The notes under the pieces were generated by a model, which saw only the letters and a list, made by a program, of their open reading frames with translations, did not search any database and had not been told where the DNA came from. The position numbers and the translations under genes were made by a program. 20,945 nucleotides of DNA from a virus, in the IMG/VR virus record IMGVR_UViG_3300036399_000683, positions 1 through 20,945 of that record; one strand, given 5' to 3'. Positions 4,633 to 19,539 of this stretch are shown here, in pieces. Within the stretch, counting starts at the first letter, position 1. Each line of letters opens with the position of its first letter.

Positions 4633-4680
4633 ACAACAACCCCACCCCCTTAGACTCCCTGGGAACACTGCACCCCTGTA

Positions 4681-4857
4681 ATGCAGCCACTTGTCTCCCC
4701 AGGATTGCTGGTCCGTCTGGCGGAGAGCTTCCCTGCTGACATCGTTGGCATGGCCAACAAGTCTCCCGACCAGCGGGCCCAGATCATTGGGGAGCAGCGG
4801 GTGGTGGAGACCATCCGCCAGTGGGCCACCGAGCAAGACCCGTTGCTGGATCTCTGA
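4681..4857 (+). CDS. Small pre-portal hypothetical protein (58 aa)
   Basis: This is a 58-residue helical, acidic protein beginning MQPLVSPGLLVRLAESF and ending ATEQDPLLDL. The frame is closed upstream by TAG 4651-4653 and the first ATG is 4681, so the start is well defined even though no ribosome binding site is visible. It ends in a TGATG overlap with the next gene. It occupies the T7 gene 7 to 7.7 interval, between exonuclease and portal, but shows no recognisable similarity to those products. Confidence 0.65.
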   Translation: MQPLVSPGLLVRLAESFPADIVGMANKSPDQRAQIIGEQRVVETIRQWATEQDPLLDL

Positions 4858-5231
4858 TGTGCGGCGGTCGCAAGCCCAAGGCTCCCACCATCACCCAACC
4901 CGACTACGGCAAGTACAACCGGCTGGCTGACACTCAGCTCCAGTTGATGCAGGCGCAGCAGTCGTCCAAGGTGATGGCGGCCCAGCAGGGGATCAACACT
5001 GCAACCCTGCAGCAGCAGGCGGTGATGCAGCAGTTGCGCGATGCCCGCATGGAGCAGGCGCAGAACACTGCCGCAACTGCTGGCCGGCTGGCGGCATTGA
5101 TTGGGGCGCCGGTCCCCGAGCGCAGCGCCAAGGCGCCGGTCCTTGGCGACAGCCGCACCGGCATGACCCGGCCAACGGGCAGCCGCGGGCTGCGGATTGA
5201 TCGGCAGCAAACGTTATCCCTGGGGCAGTAG
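4857..5231 (+). CDS. Pre-portal Gln-rich protein A (T7 gp7.3 analogue by position)
   Basis: This is a 124-aa protein with a basic N-terminus (MCGGRKPKAP), a Gln/Ala-rich helical middle (LQLMQAQQSSKVMAAQQ) and a C-terminus ending in LRIDRQQTLSLGQ. It lies two genes before the portal. T7 gp7.3, a small tail or ejected virion protein in the same place, also has a basic N-terminus, an Ala/Gln-rich body and a C-terminal Ser-Leu-Ser type end. The assignment is by position and composition rather than sequence identity. The next gene has the same design, so the two may be diverged paralogues. The start at 4857 is in a TGATG overlap, and an upstream in-frame ATG at 4821 is less likely. Confidence 0.7.
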   Translation: MCGGRKPKAPTITQPDYGKYNRLADTQLQLMQAQQSSKVMAAQQGINTATLQQQAVMQQLRDARMEQAQNTAATAGRLAALIGAPVPERSAKAPVLGDSRTGMTRPTGSRGLRIDRQQTLSLGQ

Positions 5232-5233
5232 CC

Positions 5234-5611
5234 ATGTGTGCAGCACGCGATCTCGCAAAGGCGATGGGCGCCAAGTCAAAGCAGAAGATCGATCCCATGG
5301 CGCAGCAACAGGAAGAGGCGATGAAGAGCATCAACAAACAAAACCGGGAAATGGTCGATCAACTGCGGGCCCAGTCCGAAATGATCGCCAACGACACGGC
5401 AGCACGACAGCGCGAACTGGAGGCGGCCAGGGCCCCCGGCCAAACCCTCGTCAATGCCAACCCCTACACCGTGTCCCTGGGGCAAGGCACCGCTGGGGCA
5501 GGGCAGGAGCAGACCACGGCGGTTACTGCGCCCAAGAAGAAGCCGGGCCAGAGGCTCAGCCTGACCGCTGACATCAACCTTGCAGGCGTCGGCCTGAACC
5601 TGGGGGTCTAA
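5234..5611 (+). CDS. Pre-portal Gln-rich protein B (T7 gp7.3 analogue by position)
   Basis: This is a 125-aa protein starting MCAARDLAKAMGAKSKQK, with a helical Gln/Glu/Ala-rich middle (QQQEEAMKSINKQNREM) and a C-terminus KKKPGQRLSLTADINLAGV resembling the Lys-rich, Ser-Leu-Ser, Gly/Asn-ending tail of T7 gp7.3. It starts two bases after the previous stop and ends in a TAATG overlap with the portal gene. Of the two pre-portal proteins it is the better gp7.3 candidate because it abuts the portal gene. It is probably a virion-associated tail or connector component, by inference. Confidence 0.75.
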   Translation: MCAARDLAKAMGAKSKQKIDPMAQQQEEAMKSINKQNREMVDQLRAQSEMIANDTAARQRELEAARAPGQTLVNANPYTVSLGQGTAGAGQEQTTAVTAPKKKPGQRLSLTADINLAGVGLNLGV

Positions 5612-7332
5612 TGGAACGCGGAGACAGCGGCGTCGATTCGATCTCTGAAATCCAGGGGCTGGAAAAGGGGCGGGCGGAGGTCAGGTACAACCAGCTGCGC
5701 ACCTATCGGGATACTTGGCTGGAGCGGGCACGCAGGGCGGCGCGGCTCACGATTCCATCCCTGATTCCTGACTCAGACGAGATCCTGACCGAGGCGGCCC
5801 AGGAGCAGCAACTGCCGTACAACGGCATTGGGGCGCTGGGGGTCAACAACCTATGCAGCCGGCTACTACTGGCCCTGCTGCCGCTAAGTGGATTGATCCG
5901 CTTGACGAAGGACGAAGTGGCGCAGGCGAGAGAGGACGCGACTTCCGTCGCAGAGGGCGCGACGGAAGAGGACCTTGCGGCCCAGAAGATCGAAATTGAG
6001 AAAACACTGGCCCTTCTGGATCGAGCCATTGAGCGCACCCTCTCCACCGGCAGCGATCGGGTCTCGCTGTTTGAAGGGCTGATGCACTTAATTGTCGGCG
6101 GCAACGCAATGTTGTATCGCTCGGCCACCGCGATGAAGTGCTTTCACCTCAACAAGTATGTGCTGTTGCGGGATCCAATGGGCCAGCCGGTGGAGGCCGT
6201 CGCTTGCGAAACCTATCTCTATGCCTCCCTGAACCCGAGGCTCAAGGCGGTTCTGGATGAGGCCGACAAGCTGCGCGGCGCTTGGCAAATCGACACCGAC
6301 GCCACCCGCAGGGACAACCGGCGGATCAAGGTCTTCACCCACATCAAATGGCAGTCGGGATCTGAGGAGTCCCCGGGCAGGGTGGCCTGGCACCAGGAGG
6401 TTGGGGGCTATATCGTCCCCCAAACCGATGGGAGCGAGCCAGCCGACGCTAGCCCGTGGATGCCGCTGAGGCTGTACAAGATCGACGGCGACAGCTACGG
6501 CCCCGGCTATGTCGAGTGGTGCGCCCTTGCCGACCTGTCCTGCCTGGACGGCATCAGCCAGGCGGTGCTCGAAGGCAGCGCGGCTGCAGCGCGGCAGATC
6601 GTTGGCCGCAAGCCATCGGCAATCACGAGCAAGCAAGTCTTCGAAAGGGCGCCCAACCTATCGGTGATTGATGCACAGCCTCAGGACTTCTTCCCGATTG
6701 AGACCAGCAACATTCGGGACTTGTCAGTGGCAGGGCAGAAGGAGAAGCAGCTGGAAGAGCGGCTATCCAGGATCTTTCTGCTGTTCAACGCCCGAGACTC
6801 GGAGCGCACTACGCGAGAGGAGATCAAGGAGGACATCAACCAGATCGAGCAGATGCTGGGCTCCATCTACAGTATCCTGACCGTCGAGTTTCAGTACCCC
6901 CATGCCCGCAGGATCGTTTCGGTCATGCGCAAAACCAACGAGCTGCCAAACCTGCCTGGCGTTGAGCCGCTGATCAATGTTGGCCTAGCCGCACTTGGTC
7001 GCCAGTCCGATGTTGAACGCCTTAACCAGTTCGCCATGCTTGGCCTACAGGCCATGCCGCAGGAGTTCAGCGCCTTGGTTGATGGCGCCTCATACCTCAG
7101 GGAGCTGGCGACCGGGGTAGGCGTGAATCCTCTGCTGGTCAAGTCCGACAAGCGGATCCAGGAAGAGCAGGCTGCCGCTATGCAGCGGGCACAGCAGCAG
7201 CAGTTGATCCAGGCCGGCATGGGGGATCCCCAGAAGCTGGCCAATGCCGGCATGGCCGTGCAGCAGATGGCCGAGGGGGCCCCTCCTGACGGCCAGCCCG
7301 TGCAACCCACTTCACCCGAGATGCAGCCATGA
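5611..7332 (+). CDS. Portal (head-tail connector) protein, T7 gp8-like
   Basis: This is a 573-aa protein, close to T7 gp8 (536 aa). It forms the dodecameric ring at one capsid vertex through which DNA is packaged and ejected. Diagnostic segments in the T7 order are TIPSLIPDSDE near the N-terminus, GALGVNNLCSRLLLALLP at about residue 73, LFEGLMHLIVGGNAMLY, DGDSYGPGYVEWCALADLS at about residue 291, and REEIKEDINQIEQMLGSIYS. A Gln-rich C-terminal tail (AAAMQRAQQQQ) closes the protein, as in T7 gp8. It starts in a TAATG overlap with the gp7.3-like gene and ends in an ATGA overlap with the scaffold gene. Confidence 0.95.
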   Translation: MERGDSGVDSISEIQGLEKGRAEVRYNQLRTYRDTWLERARRAARLTIPSLIPDSDEILTEAAQEQQLPYNGIGALGVNNLCSRLLLALLPLSGLIRLTKDEVAQAREDATSVAEGATEEDLAAQKIEIEKTLALLDRAIERTLSTGSDRVSLFEGLMHLIVGGNAMLYRSATAMKCFHLNKYVLLRDPMGQPVEAVACETYLYASLNPRLKAVLDEADKLRGAWQIDTDATRRDNRRIKVFTHIKWQSGSEESPGRVAWHQEVGGYIVPQTDGSEPADASPWMPLRLYKIDGDSYGPGYVEWCALADLSCLDGISQAVLEGSAAAARQIVGRKPSAITSKQVFERAPNLSVIDAQPQDFFPIETSNIRDLSVAGQKEKQLEERLSRIFLLFNARDSERTTREEIKEDINQIEQMLGSIYSILTVEFQYPHARRIVSVMRKTNELPNLPGVEPLINVGLAALGRQSDVERLNQFAMLGLQAMPQEFSALVDGASYLRELATGVGVNPLLVKSDKRIQEEQAAAMQRAQQQQLIQAGMGDPQKLANAGMAVQQMAEGAPPDGQPVQPTSPEMQP

Positions 7333-8270
7333 CCACTGAAGCCACGCCCCCCAAGACCCTTGACCAGATTAATGCGCCGGCTGAGCTGAAGGCCTTGGTC
7401 GATCCCGCGTCCTCCAAGCAAATCAGCATCCTGGACAGGTTCCTGGACGATGCAGGCGTCCCCGACCGCGAGGAGGTCGAGGGTGAGGAAGCGCCCGCTG
7501 CCCCCGAGGCCAAGCCGGCAAAGTTGGCCGGCAAATTTGAAACCCCGGCCGAACTGGAGAAGGCTTACCTGAAGCTGCAGCGCAAACAGGGCCAGCAGGG
7601 CCAGCGCAGCGAGAAGACCGAGACACCCCCGGCCGCCGCCGAGACCGAGGAGTACACCCCCGAGCGTGGCGCCGAGGTTTACGGCGAAGCCCTGGCCGCC
7701 AGGTTCCAAGAAGCCGAGGTCAACCCTTTTGAGATGGCCGCCAAGTTCGAGGCCGGCGAGGATGTCACCGCCTACGTGGATGCCCTGGCCGAAAAGGGTG
7801 GACTGCCCAGGGCATTGATCGAAACCTATCTGGCCGGCGTCAAGCCAGCCGATGCAGCGGCACCGGCCACCGGCAGCCTGAACGATCAGCCCGAGGTGGT
7901 GGCGGCCCTGCGCCAGTCGGTCGGCGGTGATGCCGCCTTCGACAAGCTGAGCCAATGGGCCGCCGCCAACCTGGCGCCAGAGGAGAAGATCGCCTACCAG
8001 CGGGCCCTCGATACCGGCAATCTGCTGGCGGTGCAGTTTGCGCTGCAGGCATTCCAGGCCCGCGCCGGCACTGCCCCCAGGGAGCCCGAGTATCTGGGGG
8101 GCGGGGCACAGACCAGCGAGCCAGCCGATGTTTACGAGACACAGGCGGACTGGAGAAAGGACCGCTACGCCAAGGATGACAACGGCAACGAGCGATACCT
8201 GAAGGACGAAAGCTATCAGCGCCGCCTGGATGCCAAGTTCGCCAGAACGAAAAGAGCCAAGAAGTGGTAA
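7329..8270 (+). CDS. Scaffolding (capsid assembly) protein, T7 gp9-like
   Basis: This is a 313-aa protein between portal and capsid, matching T7 gp9 (307 aa) in size and place. It is Glu/Ala/Pro-rich and strongly acidic in the first third (EEVEGEEAPAAPEAKPAK), with helical segments such as FETPAELEKAYLKLQRKQG. The C-terminus is basic (DAKFARTKRAKKW). An acidic, flexible body with a positively charged C-terminal capsid-binding end is typical of podovirus scaffolds, which guide procapsid assembly and are then released. The motif ETQADWRKDRYAKDDNG near the end is a common feature of such proteins. It starts in an ATGA overlap with the portal gene and ends before the largest structured gap in the window. 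Confidence 0.9.
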   Translation: MTTEATPPKTLDQINAPAELKALVDPASSKQISILDRFLDDAGVPDREEVEGEEAPAAPEAKPAKLAGKFETPAELEKAYLKLQRKQGQQGQRSEKTETPPAAAETEEYTPERGAEVYGEALAARFQEAEVNPFEMAAKFEAGEDVTAYVDALAEKGGLPRALIETYLAGVKPADAAAPATGSLNDQPEVVAALRQSVGGDAAFDKLSQWAAANLAPEEKIAYQRALDTGNLLAVQFALQAFQARAGTAPREPEYLGGGAQTSEPADVYETQADWRKDRYAKDDNGNERYLKDESYQRRLDAKFARTKRAKKW

Positions 8271-8275
8271 CGTTT

Positions 8276-8293
8276 GGGTGGATTACTCCACCC
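8276..8293 (+). other. Hairpin after the scaffold gene
   Basis: GGGTGGA (8276-8282) and TCCACCC (8287-8293) form a perfect 7-bp stem with loop TTAC, only 5 bases after the scaffold stop. Just two T residues follow, so it is a poor intrinsic terminator. An RNA-processing or stabilising hairpin between scaffold and capsid is more likely, comparable in place to processing sites near T7 gene 10. A second small stem (8309-8320, CGGC/GCCG) follows. No consensus promoter was recognised in 8271-8377, although a phage RNA polymerase promoter would be expected here. Confidence 0.55.
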
Positions 8294-8332
8294 TTGTAGC
8301 TATCTAGCCGGCTGCGGCCGACAACTTGATTA

Positions 8333-8370
8333 GCGGAAGGCGATGGGTTCCAAGAGAACTTCATTTCCGC
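8333..8370 (+). promoter_or_regulatory. Capsid leader stem-loop
   Basis: GCGGAA (8333-8338) pairs with TTCCGC (8365-8370). Inside it ATG (8343-8345) can pair with CAT (8362-8364), and GTTC (8347-8350) pairs with GAAC (8356-8359) around the loop CAAGA. The result is a long bulged hairpin ending 7 bases before the capsid start codon. The GGAAGG sequence inside the 5' arm is the only purine-rich block near the start, so folding could hide or position the ribosome site. It may also protect the 5' end of a processed capsid mRNA. Confidence 0.5.
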
Positions 8371-8377
8371 AATCACA

Positions 8378-9394
8378 ATGTCTGCCGATTTACTCGGCCT
8401 GTCCAGACTTGGGCAGGTCCGGGGCGCTGGCGATGTCACCGCCCTGTTTCTGGATCTTGGCGGCGACGAGCTGCTGACCGCTTACGACAAGAAAAAAATC
8501 CTGTCTTCCACCGTGAAGACCAAGACCATCAGGGGTGGTCGAACCAAGCGGTTCAACATGACCGCCCGCCGTCAGGCCCGCTACCACACCATTGGGACCC
8601 CAATCGACGGCGGCGGCAACTCCCCGTCCGACAACAACAGCCGGATCCTCCGGCTCGATGGGTTGATGATTGCCGATGAGGCGATCTACGACCTGGACGA
8701 GCTGCAGGAGGACCCGGCCACCAGGGCGGAAACCATGCACCAGCTGGGGGAGGCACTGGCTGACGAGCGGGAACTGCGTGTTGCCCGCATCCTGTTTGCG
8801 GCTGCCAACACCACCGCTGAGCCGTTCGCCAAATCGATCAACGCCGGCCGCACTGGCGACAAGATCACCCTTTCCGCTGGCTTTGCCGCTGCCAACAACG
8901 AGGCAAAGGGTGACGAGCTCTATGCCGCCATCAAACAGATGGTGACCTTGAAGCAGAAGAAGCACGTACCTACCGGGAACATGCGCTGCGTCGTTACCCC
9001 CGATGTCTTGGGTTGGCTACAGGACTCGAAGCGGCTGATCAATGCCGACTTCAACGGCGGGACCGGCAGCAACGGCACTGTCCAGGAAGTGTTTGCTGGG
9101 CGGATCTCTGGGGTGCCTGTTTACTGGTCGAACTTCATCGAGCAGCCGGCTTACACCCTGCAGGCCCAGGACAACGCCAACAGCGAGTACGCCCAGGATC
9201 TCTCCAAATGTCGAGCCCTGATTTACCACGGGGATGCAATGGGTGTACTGGAGCTGCGGGCGCCGAAGCTCCAGATGACCGCACCGAATGGTGACTACAA
9301 CGTGGTCTACCAGTCCCAACTGTTGGTGGCATCCATGGCCATCGGCATGGGCAAATTAAGCCCCGAATGCGCGGGGTGCATCGTCACCCCCTAA
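8378..9394 (+). CDS. Major capsid protein, T7 gp10A-like
   Basis: This is a 338-aa HK97-fold shell protein, close in size to T7 gp10A (345 aa). The T7 pattern is followed throughout: an N-terminal [19 protein letters not shown], then [39 protein letters not shown], and a C-terminus [19 protein letters not shown] that aligns with the T7 gp10A end (GHGGLRPEAAGAVV). The frame is closed upstream by TGA 8327-8329 and contains no other ATG, GTG or TTG before 8378, which fixes the start. No strong Shine-Dalgarno lies at normal spacing. No obvious slippery heptamer near the stop suggests a T7-type 10B frameshift product. A terminator follows 27 bases downstream. Confidence 0.95.
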
Positions 9395-9420
9395 GCCGCA
9401 GCCGGAGAACATGGGAGCAG

Positions 9421-9447
9421 GCCCCCGCGTCAAACCGGGGGCTTTTT
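9421..9447 (+). terminator. Intrinsic terminator after the capsid gene (T-phi position)
   Basis: GCCCCCG (9421-9427) and CGGGGGC (9436-9442) form a perfect GC-rich 7-bp stem with an 8-base loop, followed by TTTTT (9443-9447). This is a textbook intrinsic terminator. T7 carries its single late phage-polymerase terminator, T-phi, at the same place between genes 10 and 11. Because all downstream virion genes lack another obvious promoter, it probably terminates only partially. Confidence 0.85.
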
Positions 9448-9491: not shown

Positions 9492-11213
9492 ATGGGGCAG
9501 GCGGCCCAGCAACTGAGCCCCGGCCGGACCACGCTTCTGGAAGCGGTCAATATCTGCCTGGCGACGATCGGCGAGGCGCCGGTTAATTCACTGGAGACGC
9601 AGCAGGTAGGCGAGGCGGCGAACGCCGAGCGTGCCCTGTTCGAATTTCACAAGGAAGGCCAAACCGAGGGGTGGAGCTGGAATCGAGAAGCCGATGTGCC
9701 CTTCCACCGAGACCCGGATACCGGGGAGCTGACAGTCCCGGCCAACATCGTGCAGTGGGCGCCCAACCGGGTCGAATGGAACGGGCGCTTCCAGTTGCGC
9801 GGGACTCGCGTTTACGACCTGCAAGCCAGGTCTTATGCGATCGGTGAGGCGACGATCTACGCCAACGTCGTCACCCTGCTGTCGTGGGACGAATCCCCCG
9901 AGGTCTACAACCGCTGGACCACCATCCGTGCAGCGCGGGTGTTCGGCAACAGGGAGGTGGGGAACACCACCACCTACCAGCTCACCCAAGCCGATGAAGA
10001 CAAGGCATGGGCCAACCTGCTGCGGATCGACACTGCGCAGTCGCAACCCAATGCTCTGACCGGCGGCGATTCATGGGCCACATTCCGCCCGCGCCTGGGG
10101 GTGGGGGGACGCCGCGGCAGCGGGCTGGGGGATGGGATTGGTGGCTTCGGGGGGAGCAGGGGGGCGTCGTCGGGAGGCACGGGAGGGACAAGCGGGGCCG
10201 GGGAGGCTGGGCCACCAGGGCCGCCGGGGCCTCAGGGGCCGCCAGGCGCCACTGGTGCCACGGGAGCGACAGGACCCCAGGGCGCGCCGGGCCCAGCTGG
10301 GTCTCAAGGGCCAGCGGGCGCAACGGGGGCCACGGGCGCGACGGGGGCTGCATCGACGGTTCCGGGTCCAGCCGGGCCTGCCGGGCCCGCTGGGCCTCAA
10401 GGGCCGGCGGGCGCTGCATCAACGGTCCCCGGCCCAACCGGGCCTGCTGGCTCAACTGGGCCCGCTGGGCCTCAAGGGCCAGCGGGCGCGGCGGGCGCAA
10501 CGGGCAGTAGCGCCTACCAGACAGCCGTAGCTAGCGGGTTTTCAGGAACCGAGGCGCAGTGGCTGGCATCTCTTGTTGGTTCGCAAGGGCCCCAGGGCGC
10601 GACCGGGCCGCAGGGGCCGGCTGGACCCGCTGGGCCTCAGGGGCCGGCGGGGGCTGCATCAACGATCCCTGGCCCAACTGGGCCTACCGGGCCCCAGGGG
10701 CCAGCAGGTCCTACCGGTGAAGCCGGGGCGGCTGGACCTCAGGGCCCAACGGGAACGAACGGAACCGATGGCGTCGCATCAGCCGTTGCGCCTCTTTCCT
10801 ATAACCCCACCACCAAAGCTATTAGTCTGTCGTCCATTGCTGACGGGATGATATTCAAGGCAACAAACAAGGGGGAAGCGGGAACCGCCGCCACCAATTA
10901 TGACGAACTGCCGGTTGCTGTTGTCGCTGGAACTTTTGCTATTACGGGTATATATTTTGGGTGTCACATTGATTCTGTTGGCACTGGCACGGCGACTTTT
11001 AACGCTTACCGCCGAACAGCGGCAGGCGTTAAAACGTCGCTGCTGACGGCCAATGCAACTTTGCCCGCTGGCGCCAGCCTGGTGGACGCGACCTCGCTGC
11101 TGACCGGAGCTACTGGGATCACTGCCGGCACTCGTGTTGGCTTTGATGTCCTGGGATTCGGGGGCGCTACAGGTGTTTTTGTTGTCTTTCTATTCACTCG
11201 CACTTCGGTCTGA
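9492..11213 (+). CDS. Tail adaptor (T7 gp11-like) fused to a collagen-like region and C-terminal domain
   Basis: This is a 573-aa protein. Residues 1 to about 200 match T7 gp11 (tail tubular protein A, 196 aa), with [33 protein letters not shown] and the terminal pattern [13 protein letters not shown] followed by [10 protein letters not shown]7 gp11 ends here; this protein continues. A Gly-rich linker leads to collagen Gly-X-Y repeats at about 238-337 and 363-427. They are split by [20 protein letters not shown], a module I recall from phage fibres. A β-rich C-terminal domain of about 140 residues ends the protein. Some repeats carry the interruption [12 protein letters not shown] 9492 is chosen because it gives the T7-like spacing to the first helix and lies after the terminator. 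The frame is also open from ATG 9411, with GGAG nearby, but that would translate through the terminator hairpin. Confidence 0.85.
10381..10440 (+). repeat. Direct repeat in collagen coding region, copy 1
   Basis: This 60-base segment recurs exactly 240 bases downstream (10621-10680) with 7 mismatches, counted by eye. It encodes the [14 protein letters not shown]-type unit. Conservation at DNA level, including degenerate positions, points to duplication or gene conversion inside the collagen region rather than only protein-level constraint. Confidence 0.8.
10621..10680 (+). repeat. Direct repeat in collagen coding region, copy 2
   Basis: This is the second copy of the 60-base repeat, 240 bases after the first. 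The offset equals 80 codons, so the reading frame and Gly register are preserved. A third, partial relative (GCTGCATCGACGGTTCC, 10347-10363) lies upstream. Confidence 0.8.
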
Positions 11214-11215
11214 TC

Positions 11216-11830
11216 ATGCCTACTCCCAACATTGTCACCAATCCCGATACAGGGGTTCGTTATTACACCGACCCAGGGCCACAAGAGGGCCATAGCGTTG
11301 ACCTGTTTGTCCCGATCCGAAACGGAGAAGTCACTAACCCCAGCGGGGCGCCGTGGCCAAACCTGAACGGCCTCCCCGAGGACCGACCCGAACTGGTTTG
11401 GTACCTGAAGACCGCCCCCCAGGTCCGCGAGTATGACGACCGCACCCATTACGAGATCGCAATCTGGGGTCCTGTCCCCTATACCAGCCCCAAACCCGGC
11501 GGCCCACTGGGAACGTGGGAGGAAACACTGGAGGTAAAACCGCACCCAGAAGCAGTGTTGATAAGCCAAGTCGAAGCTGCCTATTCTCAAGCAAACTCCC
11601 GCCTCTACCCTCTCAACAGTGATCCCCTGCTCCGCGAGTTGCTGGACGAAGCTGAAGAAAGGGACAAGGTAAACCAGGCGACGCCAGTAATGCATGAGTT
11701 ATTGGCCCTGCGCCAAAGCATCAGGGATGCTGGCCTAGTCAACAGGGAGCGCCAAGCGTTTCTGATTGAAGAAATCAAGGCCGGCCGTCCGGTTGACCTG
11801 TCCGCCGGCTGGGTCAATGAGGTCTCGTAG
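11216..11830 (+). CDS. Hypothetical protein of the adhesion module (204 aa)
   Basis: It starts two bases after the adaptor-collagen stop. The N-terminal half is Pro/Gly-rich and β-like (RYYTDPGPQEGHSVDLFVP, YEIAIWGPVPYTSPKPGGP). The C-terminal half is helical and charged (LLRELLDEAEERDKVNQA, IRDAGLVNRERQAFLIEEI), ending in GRPVDLSAGWVNEVS. A β N-terminus plus a helical C-terminus next to fibre genes recalls tail-fibre assembly chaperones. I do not recognise a specific family, so that role is an inference from layout. It could equally be a minor tail protein. It is followed by a 37-base gap holding a ribosome site for the next gene. Confidence 0.75.
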   Translation: MPTPNIVTNPDTGVRYYTDPGPQEGHSVDLFVPIRNGEVTNPSGAPWPNLNGLPEDRPELVWYLKTAPQVREYDDRTHYEIAIWGPVPYTSPKPGGPLGTWEETLEVKPHPEAVLISQVEAAYSQANSRLYPLNSDPLLRELLDEAEERDKVNQATPVMHELLALRQSIRDAGLVNRERQAFLIEEIKAGRPVDLSAGWVNEVS

Positions 11831-11854
11831 GGAATGGAAGCGCGGGCCATGGGT

Positions 11855-11860
11855 GGGAGG
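11855..11860 (+). promoter_or_regulatory. Shine-Dalgarno site for the glycine-rich protein
   Basis: GGGAGG lies 7 bases before ATG 11868, deciding that start over the longer in-frame opening at 11766. It also marks independent ribosome entry for this gene, unlike most genes here. Confidence 0.75.
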
Positions 11861-11867
11861 TAACCGG

Positions 11868-12695
11868 ATGACCGTTGTCGCAGATAGACGAAGGCCTCCC
11901 AGCGGCGGCGGTAAAATCATCGCCACTGGGGGAGCGCTTGTATTTGAGATAGCTGGATACCGGGTACACGTTTTTAACGTGCCAGGTTCCTACTCCTTCG
12001 ACGTAACGGTTGGCGGCGCCGACCTTGAATACTTAATTCGTGCCGGCGGTGGCGGTGGCTCCCGATCAAATTGGGGCGGCGGCGGAGGCGGAGCTGGTGG
12101 CCACCGCAGCTCTGTGCCCGGTGAGCCCTCTGGTGGCGGATCGTCCGCCGAGCCGCGACTGATCGTGACCCCGCAGCAGTACATCGTAGTTGTAGGAGCC
12201 AAGGGCCTCGGTGCCCCGGCGTCAGGCTCGTTTTTTGGCACGCCAGGCGGAAATAGCTCGTTTGCTGGGATCCAGGCGCTGGGAGGCGGCCCCGGCGGTG
12301 TCGCGGGCGTATTCGGGTCTGGCGGCGGGACAAATTATGCGTCTAGTCTTACCCAGGGCGTCGGCCCGCCTGGCACCGGCACGGCAGGCCAGGGCCGCAA
12401 CGGCGGCGCAATTTACGACCGAGGCTCCGTTTATGGTGGCGGCGGTGGTGGCGGCGCGGCTCAACCCGGCAACGGCCAAGTGTCGGGCCTAGATGGTCGA
12501 GGCGGCGACGGCCTAGCGTCGTCGATTACTGGCGCACCCGTACCTGGCTGCGGTGGTGGTGGCGCCGGCGGCGTGGGTGGTGGTGGCGTAGGGGGCCTGG
12601 GCAGCAACGGCCCCGGCGGCGGCGGCAAAGGCAGCGCCACGGGCGCCGCACAGAATGGGCAGGATGGCGGAGTAATTATCCGCTACCCGATCTAA
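11868..12695 (+). CDS. Glycine-rich tail fibre/adhesin-type protein
   Basis: This is a 275-aa protein. About 60 N-terminal residues (including FEIAGYRVHVFNVPGSYSF and DLEYLIRAGGGGG) lead into a long glycine-rich domain with GGGG runs, alternating with short β segments such as PQQYIVVVGAKGLGAPAS and NSSFAGIQALGGG. It ends with NGQDGGVIIRYPI. The order of EYLIxAGGGG start, Gly sandwich and GGxIIRYP end is characteristic of the glycine-rich domain of many environmental phage fibres. These domains are thought to form polyglycine-II-like, receptor-facing structures. It most likely decorates the tail and contacts the host surface. The start is set by a good Shine-Dalgarno. A single internal Cys occurs in APVPGCGGGG. 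It is followed by a TAATG overlap with a 15-codon ORF. Confidence 0.85.
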   Translation: MTVVADRRRPPSGGGKIIATGGALVFEIAGYRVHVFNVPGSYSFDVTVGGADLEYLIRAGGGGGSRSNWGGGGGGAGGHRSSVPGEPSGGGSSAEPRLIVTPQQYIVVVGAKGLGAPASGSFFGTPGGNSSFAGIQALGGGPGGVAGVFGSGGGTNYASSLTQGVGPPGTGTAGQGRNGGAIYDRGSVYGGGGGGGAAQPGNGQVSGLDGRGGDGLASSITGAPVPGCGGGGAGGVGGGGVGGLGSNGPGGGGKGSATGAAQNGQDGGVIIRYPI

Positions 12696-12742
12696 TGCCC
12701 CTGGTAACAGCTATTGAAACAACAGTCGGCACTGCTGTGTGA
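12695..12742 (+). CDS. 15-aa coupling mini-ORF between fibre and nozzle genes
   Basis: ATG 12695 overlaps the fibre stop (TAATG), and the ORF encodes MPLVTAIETTVGTAV before TGA 12740-12742. That stop overlaps a GTG at 12739, an alternative start of the nozzle gene (GTGA), and lies 2 bases before ATG 12745. It may simply keep ribosomes moving from the fibre gene to the nozzle gene rather than make a useful peptide. It could also be chance. Confidence 0.35.
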   Translation: MPLVTAIETTVGTAV

Positions 12743-12744
12743 TC

Positions 12745-15237
12745 ATGCTCGCCAGCCAATCAATCCCAAACCTGATACAGGGCGTCAGCCAACAATCGGA
12801 CGCCCAATGCGACCCGACGCAAGGGAGGTTGCAGGTCAACGGGTACAGCTCAATGGCCGATGGCCTGCGCAAGCGGGCTGGCACCAGTGCGCTGCGGAGG
12901 GTTGCAACAGCATCCATGGGAAACGTGTTTTTTCATTCAATTCTGCGGGACTCAGCCGAGCAGTACCTGGTTGCAATCGGAGCCAATTCCGTTCGGGTGT
13001 TTGACCTGGACGGCAACGAAAAAACGGTGTCAGCCCCATTTGGCTACACCTATCTGTCCACTGCCGGCAACCCGGCCGCCGAGATCCGCGCCGCCAGCAT
13101 TGCGGATTTCACCTTCATATCGAACACCAAACGGGTGCCAGCGTTTACCACTGCGCTGGCGCCGGCCGTGGCCAGGCCCGCTGCCCACGAGGCTCTGGTG
13201 TGGGTAAAGGCAGCCAACTACGGCCAGTCCTACCGGGTGTCCGTCAACGGGCAGTTGGCCACCATCGCGACACCGATTCAACCCGTCACCGCCAGCGGCA
13301 ACAACATCACCGAGAACCGGATCAGCACTGCCGATATTGCGGAGCAGATCAAGACCGCCCTGGCCGGAGCCACTGGTGTAACGATCACCCGCGAAGGGTC
13401 GGTGCTGCATCTCACCTCCGCCAGCGCCATCACGATTGCCGCCACCGATGCCAGGGCCAACGACGACATCACGGCCATCACCAGCAGCGTGCAGGCCTTT
13501 ACCGACCTGCCGGCCATCGCCCCCCGCGGCTACCAGGTGGAGATCAAAGGCGACCCGAGTAACAAGTTTGACAATTACTACGTCTCCTTCGTCCCCCGGG
13601 TTGCCACGTCCGCCTTTGGCGAGGGGGCCTGGGAGGAATGCGTCGGGCCGGGGATGCCCTATCGCCTCAGTGCCGCCACCATGCCCCACCTGCTAATCCG
13701 GCTGGCCAGCGGCGACTTCTACTTTGGCCCTGCCAACGGCACCTACCAGCCGGCCCTTGACTTCACGCCCCCAAAGTGGGGGGACCGGACGGCTGGCGAC
13801 TACGACACCGCTCCAGACCCGTCTTTCATCGGCTACCCGGTCCAGGCGGTCTTCATCCATCGCAACCGGTTGGGCTTGCTGGCTGACGAAAGCCAAATTC
13901 TCAGCAGGGCCAAGTCGTTCTTTGACTTCTTCCCCGAGACCGTGACAACGGTGCTCGACACCGACCCGATCGACCTAGCGGCCAGCAGCAACAAAGTCAG
14001 CGTGTTGCGCCATGCCGTCTCCAGCCAGGACGAATTGATCCTGTGGAGCGATCAACTGCAGTTCAGGTCTGCATCCAGCGGGCAATCACTGACCCCCGCA
14101 ACCGCCGCCATTGCCCAGCTCACGGCCTACGAATGCGACACAGCGGTGGCCCCGCTGCAAGTGGCCGGCGGGATTGTGTTCGCCCAGACCAATGGAACCT
14201 GGACCCAGTTCCGAGAGTTCGCCCTGAGGGGGGTGGGAACCGCGCTCACCGGGGCAGCCCCGAGCATTACCGACCATGTGCCCACTTACATCCCCGCCGG
14301 CGTCCGGCAGCTGGCGGCCAACGACACCGCCGGGATCTGGTTTGCCATCACCGGCACCAGCAGCCGCATCTACGTCTACAAGTATTCGGACCGTGGCAGC
14401 GCCAACGGCGTCGAACGGGTGCAGCGCAGCTGGTCCTATTGGGATCTGACGGCCGGCAAGGTGCTGGCGATTCAGTGCGTCACCGAGACCCTGTACCTAT
14501 TGGTTGAGTACGCCGATGGCTCCGTCTGGCTGGAGAAGATGCCGGTGGCAGATCGGTTGTCCACTGATGCGCTGACCACCCTGCTGCTTGATCGCAGTGT
14601 GACCACCACCACGGCAACCCCGGCAGCGGTGCGGGTGCCCACTGGCGTCTACAACGTGGTGGCCGATGCCACGGTCTGGCCCCTGGGATATACAGCTGAG
14701 GTGCCGGTGGAGGCATGGACCCTCTACGGGCCCACGCAGAACGGCGGCAAGCTGATCGGGCGGGCCCTGGCGGGGGCCACCACCATCACCGCCAAGGGGG
14801 ACTGGCGGGGCAAGGACATCGTCTTCGGGCAGCCGTTTGAGTTCCGGTATCGATTCTCTAAGTTTGTGCTGAAGGCTGACGCCGGTGCCGGGAAGGTTGC
14901 TTCCAACGTGGCCCGCACCCAGGTTAGGCACGCCATGCTGCGGTATCACGACACCAGCTTTTTCAAGGTTGAAGTGACGCCCGAGAGACGGGATAGCGCC
15001 GTCTACAAGTTTGACGGCTGGGTCCTGGGGGTTCGCAGCAGCCAGGTTGGCAGCACCCTGGGCCAGGGCCTGGACATCGAGGACCGCAGCTATTTTGAGG
15101 GGGTGTTCCAGATCCCGATTGCTTCCAAGGGTGAAACCTGCCAGGTCGATCTGGTCAACAGCACCCCTAACCCGTGCATGTTCAGCGGTCTGGACTGGAT
15201 CGCCACCATCACCAGCAGATCCCGACCCATCCAATGA
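12745..15237 (+). CDS. Tail nozzle (tail tubular protein B), T7 gp12-like
   Basis: This is an 830-aa protein, near T7 gp12 (794 aa). It forms the hexameric tail nozzle below the adaptor. The match runs along the whole protein. The N-terminus ASQSIPNLIQGVSQQSD and LQVNGYSSMADGLRKRAG aligns with the T7 start. YQVEIKGDPSNKFDNYYV and ILSRAKSFFDFFPET lie near residue 385. DTDPIDLAASSNKVSVLRHA, LILWSDQLQF, ITDHVPTYIPAGV near residue 507, and SWSYWDLTAGKVLAIQC complete the series. The start may be ATG 12745 or GTG 12739, the latter in a GTGA overlap with the preceding mini-ORF; ATG is chosen. There is no clear Shine-Dalgarno. It ends in an ATGA overlap with the gp13-like gene. In T7 this gene directly follows gene 11; here three ORFs intervene. 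Confidence 0.95.
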   Translation: MLASQSIPNLIQGVSQQSDAQCDPTQGRLQVNGYSSMADGLRKRAGTSALRRVATASMGNVFFHSILRDSAEQYLVAIGANSVRVFDLDGNEKTVSAPFGYTYLSTAGNPAAEIRAASIADFTFISNTKRVPAFTTALAPAVARPAAHEALVWVKAANYGQSYRVSVNGQLATIATPIQPVTASGNNITENRISTADIAEQIKTALAGATGVTITREGSVLHLTSASAITIAATDARANDDITAITSSVQAFTDLPAIAPRGYQVEIKGDPSNKFDNYYVSFVPRVATSAFGEGAWEECVGPGMPYRLSAATMPHLLIRLASGDFYFGPANGTYQPALDFTPPKWGDRTAGDYDTAPDPSFIGYPVQAVFIHRNRLGLLADESQILSRAKSFFDFFPETVTTVLDTDPIDLAASSNKVSVLRHAVSSQDELILWSDQLQFRSASSGQSLTPATAAIAQLTAYECDTAVAPLQVAGGIVFAQTNGTWTQFREFALRGVGTALTGAAPSITDHVPTYIPAGVRQLAANDTAGIWFAITGTSSRIYVYKYSDRGSANGVERVQRSWSYWDLTAGKVLAIQCVTETLYLLVEYADGSVWLEKMPVADRLSTDALTTLLLDRSVTTTTATPAAVRVPTGVYNVVADATVWPLGYTAEVPVEAWTLYGPTQNGGKLIGRALAGATTITAKGDWRGKDIVFGQPFEFRYRFSKFVLKADAGAGKVASNVARTQVRHAMLRYHDTSFFKVEVTPERRDSAVYKFDGWVLGVRSSQVGSTLGQGLDIEDRSYFEGVFQIPIASKGETCQVDLVNSTPNPCMFSGLDWIATITSRSRPIQ

Positions 15238-15698: not shown

Positions 15699-16531
15699 TT
15701 CTGAACCCTATTTCGCTTGGCATCTCAGCGGTTAGCACCGGCCTGGGGCTGTTCGGTGCAAATGCCCAGGCCAAGGCACAGCAACAGGAATACAGGGCCC
15801 AAAGGTCTTTTCAGGAGGCAACGAATAAGTTTGCAAAATGGCAATCTGATCTGAATGCCAGATTTCAGAACGCTGCATCTCAGCAGCAGTATTGGCAAGC
15901 AACGCTGCAACACAACCAGCAGTTGGCCTATGTCCACCAACTGCAGAATTTTGAGCTGGCCAAACAGGCAAGCCAGGCGGACCTGGTGGCAAACACCCGT
16001 GCAGCGGCGGGCGCGGAGTTCGTCGGCAACTCAGAGGCCATGGCGGCCCAGTTCCAGGAGGCGGCCATGCAAGAACTGGTGGCCCAGCAGCAGTATCACT
16101 GGCGAGCGCTGCAGGGCAGGGCGTCGGTGCAGGCCATGGATCGACAGGGCCAATCGGTGGACCGCCTGATCAACAACTACGCCAAACAGGCCGGGGATTA
16201 CGACTCAATCGCTGCCATCAACAGGAAGCTCCAGGACAAGCAGTACACCCGCCAGCAGGCCGCGTCCGTTGGCCGGTATCTGAGCCAATGGAACAGCCAG
16301 AGCTTCTACGAGCCCACCCGCTACATCGAACCCATGGCGCCGTTTGTGCCGCTGCCTGCGCTGATGATGCCGTCCGCCCCATCGATGACAGGGGTAGCTC
16401 CAAGCGGTGGCATCGGCGCGCTGGGCCTTGGCACCGCGTTGCTGGGTGGTATCGGTACCTATCAGCAAAGCCAGCAGGGGATGAGGCGGTCGGCCATGGC
16501 CGGCCTTGGTGAAGCTGCGGGGGCCTACTGA
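15695..16531 (+). CDS. Internal virion protein B, T7 gp14-like
   Basis: This is a 278-aa protein with a GTG start in a GTGA overlap and a good GGAGG site. The N-terminus PISLGISAVSTGLGLFGAN is hydrophobic. It is followed by NAQAKAQQQEYRAQRSF, the same arrangement as T7 gp14 (hydrophobic N-terminus, then NAQAK). A long Gln/Ala-rich helical body follows (for example FQEAAMQELVAQQQYHW). The C-terminus contains a Pro-rich part and a Gly-rich hydrophobic segment, GGIGALGLGTALLGGIG, which could insert in a membrane. T7 gp14 is ejected and forms the outer-membrane part of the DNA-delivery channel. This protein is longer than the T7 one (196 aa). Confidence 0.9.
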   Translation: MILNPISLGISAVSTGLGLFGANAQAKAQQQEYRAQRSFQEATNKFAKWQSDLNARFQNAASQQQYWQATLQHNQQLAYVHQLQNFELAKQASQADLVANTRAAAGAEFVGNSEAMAAQFQEAAMQELVAQQQYHWRALQGRASVQAMDRQGQSVDRLINNYAKQAGDYDSIAAINRKLQDKQYTRQQAASVGRYLSQWNSQSFYEPTRYIEPMAPFVPLPALMMPSAPSMTGVAPSGGIGALGLGTALLGGIGTYQQSQQGMRRSAMAGLGEAAGAY

Positions 16532-19500
16532 TGGCGCGGTCCGACCTCCCCCTGGGCTCAATCAACCCGGCTGCCAGGCCGGTTTCCGACTTTGTGCGGC
16601 CGGCGCAGATACAGCTCGCCGCACCGGTCGCGCCTCCGGGGATGCCGGCGCTGCCCGGGGCCACCCTGCTGCAGGGGCCCGGCATGGCCAGCATCGGCGG
16701 CGTCAACCGCAGCCAGCAGCTGGCGGAGGCCTTGGCGCCGTTCTCAAGGAGCCTGACGGCAGTCCTGCAGCAGAGCGCTGAATCTGCGGCTGCATCGGCG
16801 GCCCAGCGGGGCCAGCGGCAGGCTTATGACGAGGCCCGAAACGCCAGCCTGCAGGCGCTGAGCACCGCCGACCGAACGAACGAGGCTGCCAGTTACGACT
16901 ACGCCGCGGCGAATCGGAGGCTGGCGGCCAAGGACCCCGAGGGCGGGTTCTTGATGGACCTGCTCAACCCCTACCGGCAGACGGGTGTGCAGAGGGGGCT
17001 GGCCACGCTGGCGGGCGCAGAGATCGGGCCCGCAATGGAGTCGGCCTACGAGCAGAACGCCGCTGCGATCCTGGCGGCCGGCGACAAGGGGCCCGCCATG
17101 CTCCAGCAGCTGCGGGCGAAGGTGACTTCGGATCTGGCCCAGAAATATGCACTGGACGAAACCACGCCTGGCTTCCTGGCTAACACGTTGCCAAGGATTA
17201 ACCAAGCCTGGGAGAAGGTCTCCAATCGGTCGCTGAAGGACAAGGTTGAATACCAAAAAGCCACCGTGCCGCCGCTTGCCGCAGCCCGGATTATGGCGTT
17301 GTGGGCGGACTTTAAGGCCCAGCGGTATCGCAAGGAAGGCCAAGTCATCATTGGCAATCAGGCAATCAATAACGACGACAGCCCCGAAAGCCAGAGGGCT
17401 ATGGATGCGGCCCTTTACAACCAAGCAGAGATAATCCTTGACGGCGAATCGGCAAAGATGGGCCTGACAGGGGAGCCAACGTACTTCGGCAAGAAAGTGG
17501 CCGAGGTCCTGTTCTCCAATGCCGATGCAAACGGGCTCGACGATCCGCAGTTTAAGAAGTTTGTCAGCGGGATCCGCACTGGCCCAGCGCTTGTGACGAA
17601 CCCGGCGACGGGCGAGAAAGAGCGCATGACGCTTGGCGCCATGTATAGCCAGGAAAGCATTGATAGTGAAATGAAGTATGGGGAATATGCGTTTAAGCAA
17701 CGGGAGCGACGGGAGAGGCAACTGCTCGAAAGCTCCGAAGACATGCTGCTGACCGGGCGACCAGACCTCCCAGGGCTCCTGCAGGTTGACCCGCAGGACG
17801 AAGAGGCGAAGGCGGCATGGGCCCAGGCCCAGCTCAAGCGCTACCAGCAGGAGAACCCTGGCGCCCCGCTGGCCCCGTTCCTGAAGTCGCTGGGGGGCAT
17901 GGTGGGAGTGGTCAAGGACATCCCTGGCTACAGCTACGCTCCTGGCGCTGGCGATGACTACCTCCTGGGGCTGCAGGGCCAGTTCGGGGATGACTGGGAT
18001 CCGGTGAAGGCCCGGCAGGGTTGGCTGAAGGTACGAGACAGCGTCGATCCCAAGGATCGCGGCGCCAAGGATCGCCAGTTTGAGGCGATCGTTAAAGACA
18101 AGGACGGCAAGGGCGGCACCCTGTTCCGAAGCGTAGTCAATCGGATCGTTCAAGATGAAATTGCTGCTGCGCTGACCCGTGAGTACGGGGGCAACGAACG
18201 GGAAGCGTTGCTGTCCCGAACTCCCGATGCTCTGACGAGCCTCTTGGCAAACAAAAGCAGGGCAAGGGCCAATCTCAACAGCGCTCTCTATCCCTACGTC
18301 AATGCTGCGATTGGCAAGGCAGCGGCGGAGAAGGGGGCTTCCCTAAGCGAGATCGAGACCGAGGACGTGGCCCGCAATGCTGTAGCGCAATACGGCACCC
18401 TGAGCGACACCAGTAAGGCGGCCTACAAAACGCTGTTCCCCGGCGGACGGGTCAGCGGCGCCCCATCGGTCCCTGGCACCATGGCGACCCCTGCGGGCCC
18501 TGCTGCCACCGGCAAGCCGGCACAGGCGGCGCCCCCAACCTTCGGCGTCCAGCAGCTCGACAACTTCCCGATGCGCCAGCAGCGCTTGCTGAATTGGCAG
18601 AACGAAACGATCCTGAACCGGGAGGGCATCCAGTCCGAGCTGGTGCGGCTGCAGTCCGGCAAGGGCTTCAGCCCCCAGCTCAAGCGGGCCGCCATGGATG
18701 GCAGGGCCCGGACGCCGGCCGAGTTCCTGGAGGGGCAGATGAAGCGCTACGGCATGACGATCACCCCCAAGGCGATGAAGCATCTGCAGGAGATCAGCAG
18801 CGCCGAAACGACTCCCCTGCGGTACGTCGCCACTGCGGCCAACGCGGCCTATCCCGTGCTGGCCAGGGCCTCGATGTGGGCGCTCGATGCGATCACCGGC
18901 ACCCAGCCATCAATCGCGGCGGGGATGCCGGCCGGGGGGATGCCGGCGCAACCGCAACGGCTGATTTCCTTCAACCCGTATCGGCGGCCGGCGGCAAGAT
19001 CCACGGCGCCAAGCGGTGGTGGTGGTGATTGGCCTGTGCCCACCACGACTCCAAAGCACCCGGTTCTGGCAACCCTTAGCAAGGGTGATCTGGCCCCCGC
19101 CCCGAGCGGCTACTGCGTTACTGCGGTTCTGGAAACCCTGGAGCGGAATGGGCTCCCGAACCCGGCTGCAACTGGGATGGACAACGGAAACAACCCGCGT
19201 GGCCTGGCCTCGCAGTTGCTGAACTCTTACGGCTGGAAGCCACTGCCTGGACTTGGCAAGACGCAAGCGCTAAACAGCCCCTACGGGAAAGCGAATGCAA
19301 ACATTATTCCTGAGGCTCAATATCAGGCCGCGCTAAAGGCGGGCAAGATCCCAAGCGGTGCGCTTGTTTTCTCTACTCGGCATCCCACATGGAATAGCAC
19401 GTCTCCGGCTTCCCGTGGTTTTGATGTTGCTGTTTCAAGGAACAATGGCCGCAATCTTTGGAACGGCAAAATGAATGGTCCCAACATTTACGGCGACACA

Positions 19501-19539
19501 ACTTTCCGAATCGTCCTGGTCCCTGGGGGTGCCCGCTGA
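16531..19539 (+). CDS. Internal virion protein C, T7 gp15-like, with C-terminal Cys domain
   Basis: This is a 1002-aa protein, larger than T7 gp15 (747 aa), starting in a TGATG overlap. The N-terminus SDLPLGSINPAARPVSDFV and QLAEALAPFSRSLTAVLQQ is typical of podovirus gp15-like core proteins. The body is largely helical and hydrophilic. Residues about 650-690 and 795-850 are Pro/Gly/Ala linkers. The last 150 or so residues look like a separate domain. It has SGYCVTAVLETLERNGLPNP (C862), NNPRGLASQLLNSYGW, IPSGALVFSTRHPTW (H951) and SRGFDVAVSRNNGRNLW (D965). The Cys at a helix start, followed by GALVF, resembles Cys-dependent peptidoglycan hydrolases (NlpC/P60 or CHAP type). However, the usual His of the HVxI strand is Asp here, so activity is uncertain. 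Ejection into the host periplasm is expected from the family. Confidence 0.85.
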   Translation: MARSDLPLGSINPAARPVSDFVRPAQIQLAAPVAPPGMPALPGATLLQGPGMASIGGVNRSQQLAEALAPFSRSLTAVLQQSAESAAASAAQRGQRQAYDEARNASLQALSTADRTNEAASYDYAAANRRLAAKDPEGGFLMDLLNPYRQTGVQRGLATLAGAEIGPAMESAYEQNAAAILAAGDKGPAMLQQLRAKVTSDLAQKYALDETTPGFLANTLPRINQAWEKVSNRSLKDKVEYQKATVPPLAAARIMALWADFKAQRYRKEGQVIIGNQAINNDDSPESQRAMDAALYNQAEIILDGESAKMGLTGEPTYFGKKVAEVLFSNADANGLDDPQFKKFVSGIRTGPALVTNPATGEKERMTLGAMYSQESIDSEMKYGEYAFKQRERRERQLLESSEDMLLTGRPDLPGLLQVDPQDEEAKAAWAQAQLKRYQQENPGAPLAPFLKSLGGMVGVVKDIPGYSYAPGAGDDYLLGLQGQFGDDWDPVKARQGWLKVRDSVDPKDRGAKDRQFEAIVKDKDGKGGTLFRSVVNRIVQDEIAAALTREYGGNEREALLSRTPDALTSLLANKSRARANLNSALYPYVNAAIGKAAAEKGASLSEIETEDVARNAVAQYGTLSDTSKAAYKTLFPGGRVSGAPSVPGTMATPAGPAATGKPAQAAPPTFGVQQLDNFPMRQQRLLNWQNETILNREGIQSELVRLQSGKGFSPQLKRAAMDGRARTPAEFLEGQMKRYGMTITPKAMKHLQEISSAETTPLRYVATAANAAYPVLARASMWALDAITGTQPSIAAGMPAGGMPAQPQRLISFNPYRRPAARSTAPSGGGGDWPVPTTTPKHPVLATLSKGDLAPAPSGYCVTAVLETLERNGLPNPAATGMDNGNNPRGLASQLLNSYGWKPLPGLGKTQALNSPYGKANANIIPEAQYQAALKAGKIPSGALVFSTRHPTWNSTSPASRGFDVAVSRNNGRNLWNGKMNGPNIYGDTTFRIVLVPGGAR

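Follow-up and report, generated by a model that had tools for sequence, protein, structure and literature searches.

The adaptor gene and its surroundings

The DNA analyzed here, hereafter the window, is a 20,945-base virus record (IMG/VR record IMGVR_UViG_3300036399_000683) in which portal, scaffold, capsid, and nozzle genes follow one another in T7 order. The gp11 adaptor gene, present as a single copy in the records searched, is placed between the capsid gene and gp12 (Table 1). Here it forms a single uninterrupted open reading frame on the plus strand, from an ATG at 9492 that aligns with the start of Synechococcus phage S-SRP02 gp11 to a stop codon at 11211-11213.

Table 1. Features of the window and the evidence on which each assignment rests.
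Feature	Position	Strand	Basis or remark
Portal gp8, scaffold gp9, capsid gp10	5611-9394	+	T7-like phage context
Terminator-like hairpin, capsid-gp11 gap	9419-9444	+	-17.6 kcal/mol, z = -3.2, then a U run
gp11 adaptor domain, residues 1-208	9492-10115	+	Pfam Tube, PHROG 446, S-SRP02, and PDB matches
Gly-rich linker, residues 209-239	10116-10208	+	Begins where free gp11 proteins end; in-frame substitutions
Collagen-like block 1, residues 240-340 (16, 6, and 9 Gly-X-Y triplets)	10209-10511	+	Pfam Collagen, run count
SAYQ-type spacer between the collagen blocks	10512-10577	+	Translation
Collagen-like block 2, residues 363-429 (9 and 12 triplets)	10578-10778	+	Pfam Collagen, run count
CTD-A, predicted all-beta C-terminal domain, residues 430-573	10779-11213	+	AlphaFold2 model; without a Pfam or PHROGs family
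ORF2, 204 aa, CTD-type-specific partner	11216-11830	+	Accompanies CTD-A in the contigs examined
ORF3, ~292 aa from ATG 11817 (ORF list: TTG 11766)	11817-12695	+	Pfam Gly_rich_2
gp12 nozzle	12739-15237	+	Pfam Phage_nozzle, 4e-219; the cassette separates it from gp11 here

The initial annotation held that the first 200 or so residues match T7 gp11 to its natural end, and the homology searches bear this out. The Pfam Tube profile (PF17212) aligns above its gathering score to residues 16-185 (E = 1.5e-39; profile positions 1-168 of 169), PHROG 446 matches at 2.3e-43, and the domain is 54% identical to gp11 of S-SRP02. The gp11 proteins of S-SRP02 and a Mediterranean fosmid phage (219-220 aa) can be aligned with residues 1-208 over their whole extent, and the relationship to S-SRP02 points to freshwater Synechococcus or Cyanobium as the putative host. 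The Tube domain is complete, and the fiber is joined at the natural end of gp11. PDB sequence matches to the fusion include the P-SCSP1u adaptor gp22 (3.6e-20) and T7 gp11 (8.8e-17); by homology, the adaptor domain would comprise a helix bundle, a fiber dock, and an embracing helix.

The same frame then carries, as had also been proposed, two collagen-like blocks, a spacer, and a beta-rich end. Pfam Collagen (PF01391) matches at E = 1.3e-14, and five uninterrupted Gly-X-Y runs totaling ~52 triplets lie within residues 240-429, those of block 1 being separated by short STVP-type breaks. In the stretch tested, 51 triplets fall in runs of at least 5, whereas none of 10,000 shufflings of these residues gave more than 18. 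A similar spacer is present in siphophage fibers such as L029, L030, and L033. The N-terminal domain of gp17 (Phage_T7_tail) was not found in the fusion by Pfam.

CTD-A, the beta-rich end, has no family that we could find in Pfam or PHROGs, and its sequence profile returned nothing significant from the PDB. AlphaFold2 models it as all-beta at moderate confidence (pLDDT 66). Foldseek places ExsF, BclA, TRAIL, and C1q among the best matches to this pLDDT 66 model, all of them weak (E ~1e-3 to 1e-2, TM ~0.4), and the domain is possibly TNF/C1q-like.

Other features of the record are noted in passing. The hairpin in the capsid-gp11 gap occupies what we take to be the position of T7 Tphi and is apparently conserved in relatives, with the same PRVKPG translation; a promoter and terminator scan gave results at chance level. 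A 186-aa ORF on the minus strand (4650-5210), between an exonuclease-like gene and the portal gene, is 90% identical in G007 and matches nothing in PHROGs. The last ~130 residues of a 1002-aa protein (16531-19539) match the endolysin PHROG phrog_90, possibly a virion-borne lysozyme-like domain. The counterpart in L064 (5343-9428, minus strand) of the window ORF from 19458 is a 1361-aa virion-type protein whose only match is to a portal PHROG, at its far end (phrog_21 positions 1016-1325, E = 1.6e-28).

The fused frame in other contigs

The window protein was recovered by tblastn at 100% in three IMG/VR contigs, L010, L011, and L012, the last of which has three base differences from the window, all in the linker. 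Divergent copies of the fusion occur in L013-L023, and the frame is open in all full-length relatives. Between the window and L020, block 1 carries 7, 2, and 35 changes at the first, second, and third codon positions, respectively, with 29 synonymous versus 10 nonsynonymous codons. The linker exhibits the same excess in smaller numbers (5, 2, and 11 changes; 9 synonymous versus 5 nonsynonymous), and third-position and synonymous changes predominate throughout the collagen part.

Given the open frame in full-length relatives, the codon-position bias, and the copies in separate contigs, a stop, frameshift, or assembly join between adaptor and collagen appears very unlikely. The junction is G-rich and of low complexity, a setting that would favor a sequencing or assembly artifact, namely a frame error or the chimeric joining of two adjacent genes. 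We give this explanation next to no credence, since the fusion is found in many contigs, divergent ones included, the bias in codon position extends across the junction, and wholly different tails are attached at the identical gp11 position. On the in-frame substitution patterns, together with the multiple contigs bearing different tails, we reject a frameshift or assembly error. The idea that programmed frameshifting at the G-run yields a short gp11 found no support; the other frames stay open long past the end of gp11, and the run itself is interrupted in L013 and L016.

Extended and ordinary adaptors among relatives

In contigs whose gp12 is at least 90% identical to that of the window and in which gp11 is in view, gp11 carries 275-365 extra residues, with 1.36-1.68 kb ahead of gp12. 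In 62 relatives (gp12 44-66% identical), gp11 ends no more than 7 aa from the domain end and gp12 starts at -4 to +3 bp. No cassette-sized gap before gp12 was found in eight distant loci (gp12 ~30%, several matched over a partial domain). A wider gp11 scan gave 11 extended and 68 short proteins, with 1 cut by the contig end. An adaptor-collagen fusion typical of all T7-like phages is ruled out by these ordinary gp11 proteins and by INPHARED coverage, and a scan of bacterial and archaeal genomes for the fusion gave only collagen-like matches.

Six of the contigs, L181-L186, contain extended gp11s (66-79% identical) with other tails, among them fusions of 782, 723, and 1313 aa. The shaft of the 782-aa fusion resembles a siphophage fiber (77% identity over 216 aa), and the 1313-aa fusion matches tail-fiber PHROGs. 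In a gp11 tree the extended proteins group with a single unextended one, L187, in a clade (support 100/100), and the 62 relatives with gp11 abutting gp12 lie outside it. The tree calls for at least two changes, which could be a gain followed by a loss or a pair of gains; the fusion is therefore dispensable, as L187 lacks it. Among the close relatives, collagen occurs with CTD-A, CTD-B, or CTD-C, and L015 carries CTD-A on a non-collagen shaft, without collagen runs. Because the clade joins gp11 to several kinds of fiber, collagen is, by these sequence comparisons, an optional part, one of several tails joined to gp11 at the same point. The adaptor-collagen fusion of the initial annotation is covalent and lies at the natural end of gp11, as claimed, but was described incompletely: the collagen can be absent, and the feature runs past 11213.

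Downstream of the 1313-aa fusion, L277:1-369 (minus strand) encodes the near-identical repeats FVALGQTARGWxGMTTLGxDxYC...GDIYKQTGGAGN. This ORF looks like a beta-propeller lectin and is possibly another tip protein.

A three-gene cassette and a proposed second fiber

The full unit is a cassette of three parts that precedes gp12, namely the fiber part of the fusion, a small partner (ORF2), and a tip-type gene (ORF3). ORF2 and ORF3 are absent from relatives with an ordinary gp11, and the partner and the start of the tip protein change along with the CTD type. In CTD-A cassettes ORF2 is of a 204-aa type (73-92% identical), and in the CTD-C cassettes compared (G007 and G016) the partner is of a 225-aa type (94.7% identical). 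For type B, the three-gene order is common to L016 and L030, a collagen-fiber contig without gp11, and the partner and tip protein are only distantly related between the two (33% and 40% identical, respectively). Small ORFs beside the non-collagen fusions of L185 (5860-6318) and L186 (5349-5837) resemble the 225-aa ORF2 at 31-35% identity, with a DW..F / F.GAW / LP-type pattern that suggests one partner family.

We propose that ORF2 is a fiber chaperone. In its structural model the C-terminal helices reach pLDDT ~66-92 by block, and the beta-type N-terminal half falls below 50. No database family was found for ORF2, the sequence profiles of ORF2 and of ORF2-like partners retrieved nothing significant from the PDB, and Foldseek against BFVD gave nothing useful. 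Comparison with known fiber chaperones gave no significant sequence or fold match (7ypx_a at rank 7, E = 1.7).

For ORF3 we propose the role of tip adhesin. In the window it matches Pfam Gly_rich_2 (E = 1.2e-6, 29.2 bits against a cut-off of 24.3). Across CTD-A cassettes only its N-terminal 38-49 aa match strongly, and the body that follows is Gly-rich in the window, LamG/ConA-like in G005 and G011, and unassigned in G013. From its position and this module pattern, we infer that ORF3 may sit at the tip and bind the receptor.

Between podophage and siphophage records compared by blastn, the cassette is the only substantial match. Whole-record comparison of the window with either G011 or G013 finds the CTD-A cassette as the only similarity (79-80% over ~1.09 kb), and comparison of G007 with G016 finds only the CTD-C cassette (90.6% over 1656 bp). 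Across podophage and siphophage contigs, cassette DNA identity spans 79-91%. G011 is a siphophage by its terminase, portal, protease, capsid, and tape-measure matches; its cassette sits after a short ORF that weakly matches a head-closure protein and before the tail genes. The cassette also follows a head-closure-like ORF in L028, L034, and L036.

CTD-A is 92-93% identical in siphophage contigs L026 and L028, and CTD-C ~92% in L033/L034. The earlier description of a new C-terminal domain accordingly stands with respect to Pfam and PHROGs and fails with respect to these siphophage copies. Between CTD-A and a siphophage copy, dN is 0.05 and dS 0.54. The domain is, on this measure of sequence divergence, strongly constrained and would represent a conserved platform upon which the ORF3 body changes.

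Host recognition in T7-like phages is usually attributed to gp17 and to satellites docked between gp11 and gp12. Five fused records (G001, G005, G007, G030, and G033) hold a gp17-type N-terminal domain in a separate gene. Replacement of gp17 by the collagen fiber is ruled out for these five, and the fusion there is an added fiber.

Proposed function and its alternatives

Taken together, these observations lead us to propose that the gp11 adaptor ring probably anchors a second adhesion fiber, one that can be exchanged, at the head-tail collar. The adaptors of T7 and P-SCSP1u end in a helix that wraps around the portal beneath the capsid (PMC6702177, PMC10575957). An extension of this helix would therefore leave at the collar, and exit of the collagen at the neck is plausible. 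From homology with T7 and P-SCSP1u we infer a dodecameric ring, trimerization, copy number, and collar exit. As we picture it, gp11 would assemble on the portal after packaging, with its C-termini exiting at the collar beneath the capsid. The ~30-residue flexible linker would then allow neighboring chains to come together as collagen triple helices with a trimeric CTD-A cap, the simplest arrangement being four trimers of neighbors per 12-mer. Collagen and TNF/C1q-type caps are trimeric, and a collagen rod of ~160 residues at ~0.29 nm per residue would extend an estimated ~45 nm. ORF2 would assist folding of the CTD, for which we propose the dual role of trimer cap and tip-docking domain; ORF3 would dock on the CTD by its N-terminus, its variable part binding the host surface, and gp17 would still trigger infection. 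More tentatively, and with somewhat less than even confidence, we envisage the ring as an all-purpose fiber holder in a lineage of T7-like phages, with 12 covalent arms forming four trimeric fibers beside six gp17 fibers (12/6/4), cassettes exchanged with neck-borne siphophage copies, and two adhesion systems that evolve separately.

Retention of gp17 would also suit a structural neck whisker or decoration, in the style of T4 fibritin or collar whiskers, that controls gp17 posture or makes weak surface contacts and does not bind a receptor. Collagen rods and TNF/C1q-like caps do occur in passive surface structures (BclA/ExsF), and L187 manages without any extension. Yet a single gp11 position bears several kinds of fiber, with tail-fiber PHROG matches, and in CTD-A cassettes lectin-like (LamG) or Gly-rich ORF3 bodies are swapped over an unchanging type of CTD, as would be anticipated for a determinant of host range; we consider a purely structural role unlikely. 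Alternatively, the fiber might be removed by cleavage after translation, or be present on just a fraction of the gp11 copies, so that the ring is largely ordinary gp11. This would relieve the apparent crowding of twelve bulky fibers on a 12-fold ring that docks six gp17 trimers, and proteases might attack the long Gly-rich linker. We judge it distinctly improbable, given that no second, unfused gp11 was found in the fused records searched by family and that no frameshift signal was identified, the other frames at the junction being open over long stretches with no stops near the gp11 end.

If the gp11 ring is an adhesion-fiber anchor, then one and the same protein both seals the packaged head and serves as a covalent anchor, with several kinds of fiber at one position. 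Such an arrangement poses a problem of 12-fold versus 3-fold assembly that is approachable by cryo-EM. The DNA matches between podophages and siphophages define the cassette boundaries and suggest that the specificity gene is ORF3, which varies while the CTD is conserved. In phages of this kind, annotation of receptor-binding proteins that relies solely on homology to gp17 may overlook a second adhesion device.

Comparison with known systems

The initial annotation regarded a covalent link between collagen and the gp11 adaptor as unfamiliar. The fusion is present in many IMG/VR contigs, and no named phage with it was found in INPHARED: screened by similarity to the window fusion protein, not by gp11 length, none of 1134 matching records covers 80% of the query, and the highest coverage among the matches listed is 36%. 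An adaptor-collagen link was not found in the open-licence literature.

The nearest relatives of the anchor are T7 gp11 and P-SCSP1u gp22 (PF17212), with which it shares the whole adaptor domain, the portal-scaffold-capsid-gp11 order with gp12 downstream, and, by homology, the embracing-helix C-terminus. T7 gp11, however, comprises 196 aa, and relatives outside the clade end just past the domain, whereas ~365 further residues constitute a fiber here. The Gly-X-Y rods resemble those of phage collagen-like fibers (PHROG 6320 and 5073; L026, L028, and L033, the last with the same spacer), but those fibers are anchored by an unrelated N-terminus (MTQTPLTISQL...) and not by a head-tail adaptor. In T-even and S16-type phages, a separate Gly-rich tip adhesin, gp38, lies beside the gp37 fiber gene (titles cited in PMC6957217). 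The Gly-rich ORF3 beside a fiber gene is likened to gp38 by gene arrangement and Gly-rich domain, not by homology; it differs in that ORF3 may also be LamG-like and in that the fiber here is carried on gp11.

The freshwater cyanophage Pam3, a myophage, possesses a fiber, gp24, with TNF-like and Gly-rich domains that docks on the baseplate, and a chaperone, gp25 (PMC9608196). Pam3 gp25 is like ORF2 in outline, a small helper with a beta N-terminus and a helical C-terminus (PMC9608196), but the setting is that of a myophage with baseplate docking, and neither sequence nor fold comparison gave ORF2 a significant match to it. Finally, the receptor-binding proteins of Klebsiella phages KP32 and KP34 combine an anchor with exchangeable specificity modules, exchange between podophages and siphophages, and a second receptor-binding protein docked on the first (PMC8262889). 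There, anchoring falls to the N-terminal domain of the receptor-binding protein or to an intermediate anchor protein rather than to the adaptor (PMC8262889). Fiber-module exchange and the anchor-plus-specificity principle are thus already known (PMC8262889); what would be new is the adaptor ring itself as a covalent, reusable fiber anchor.
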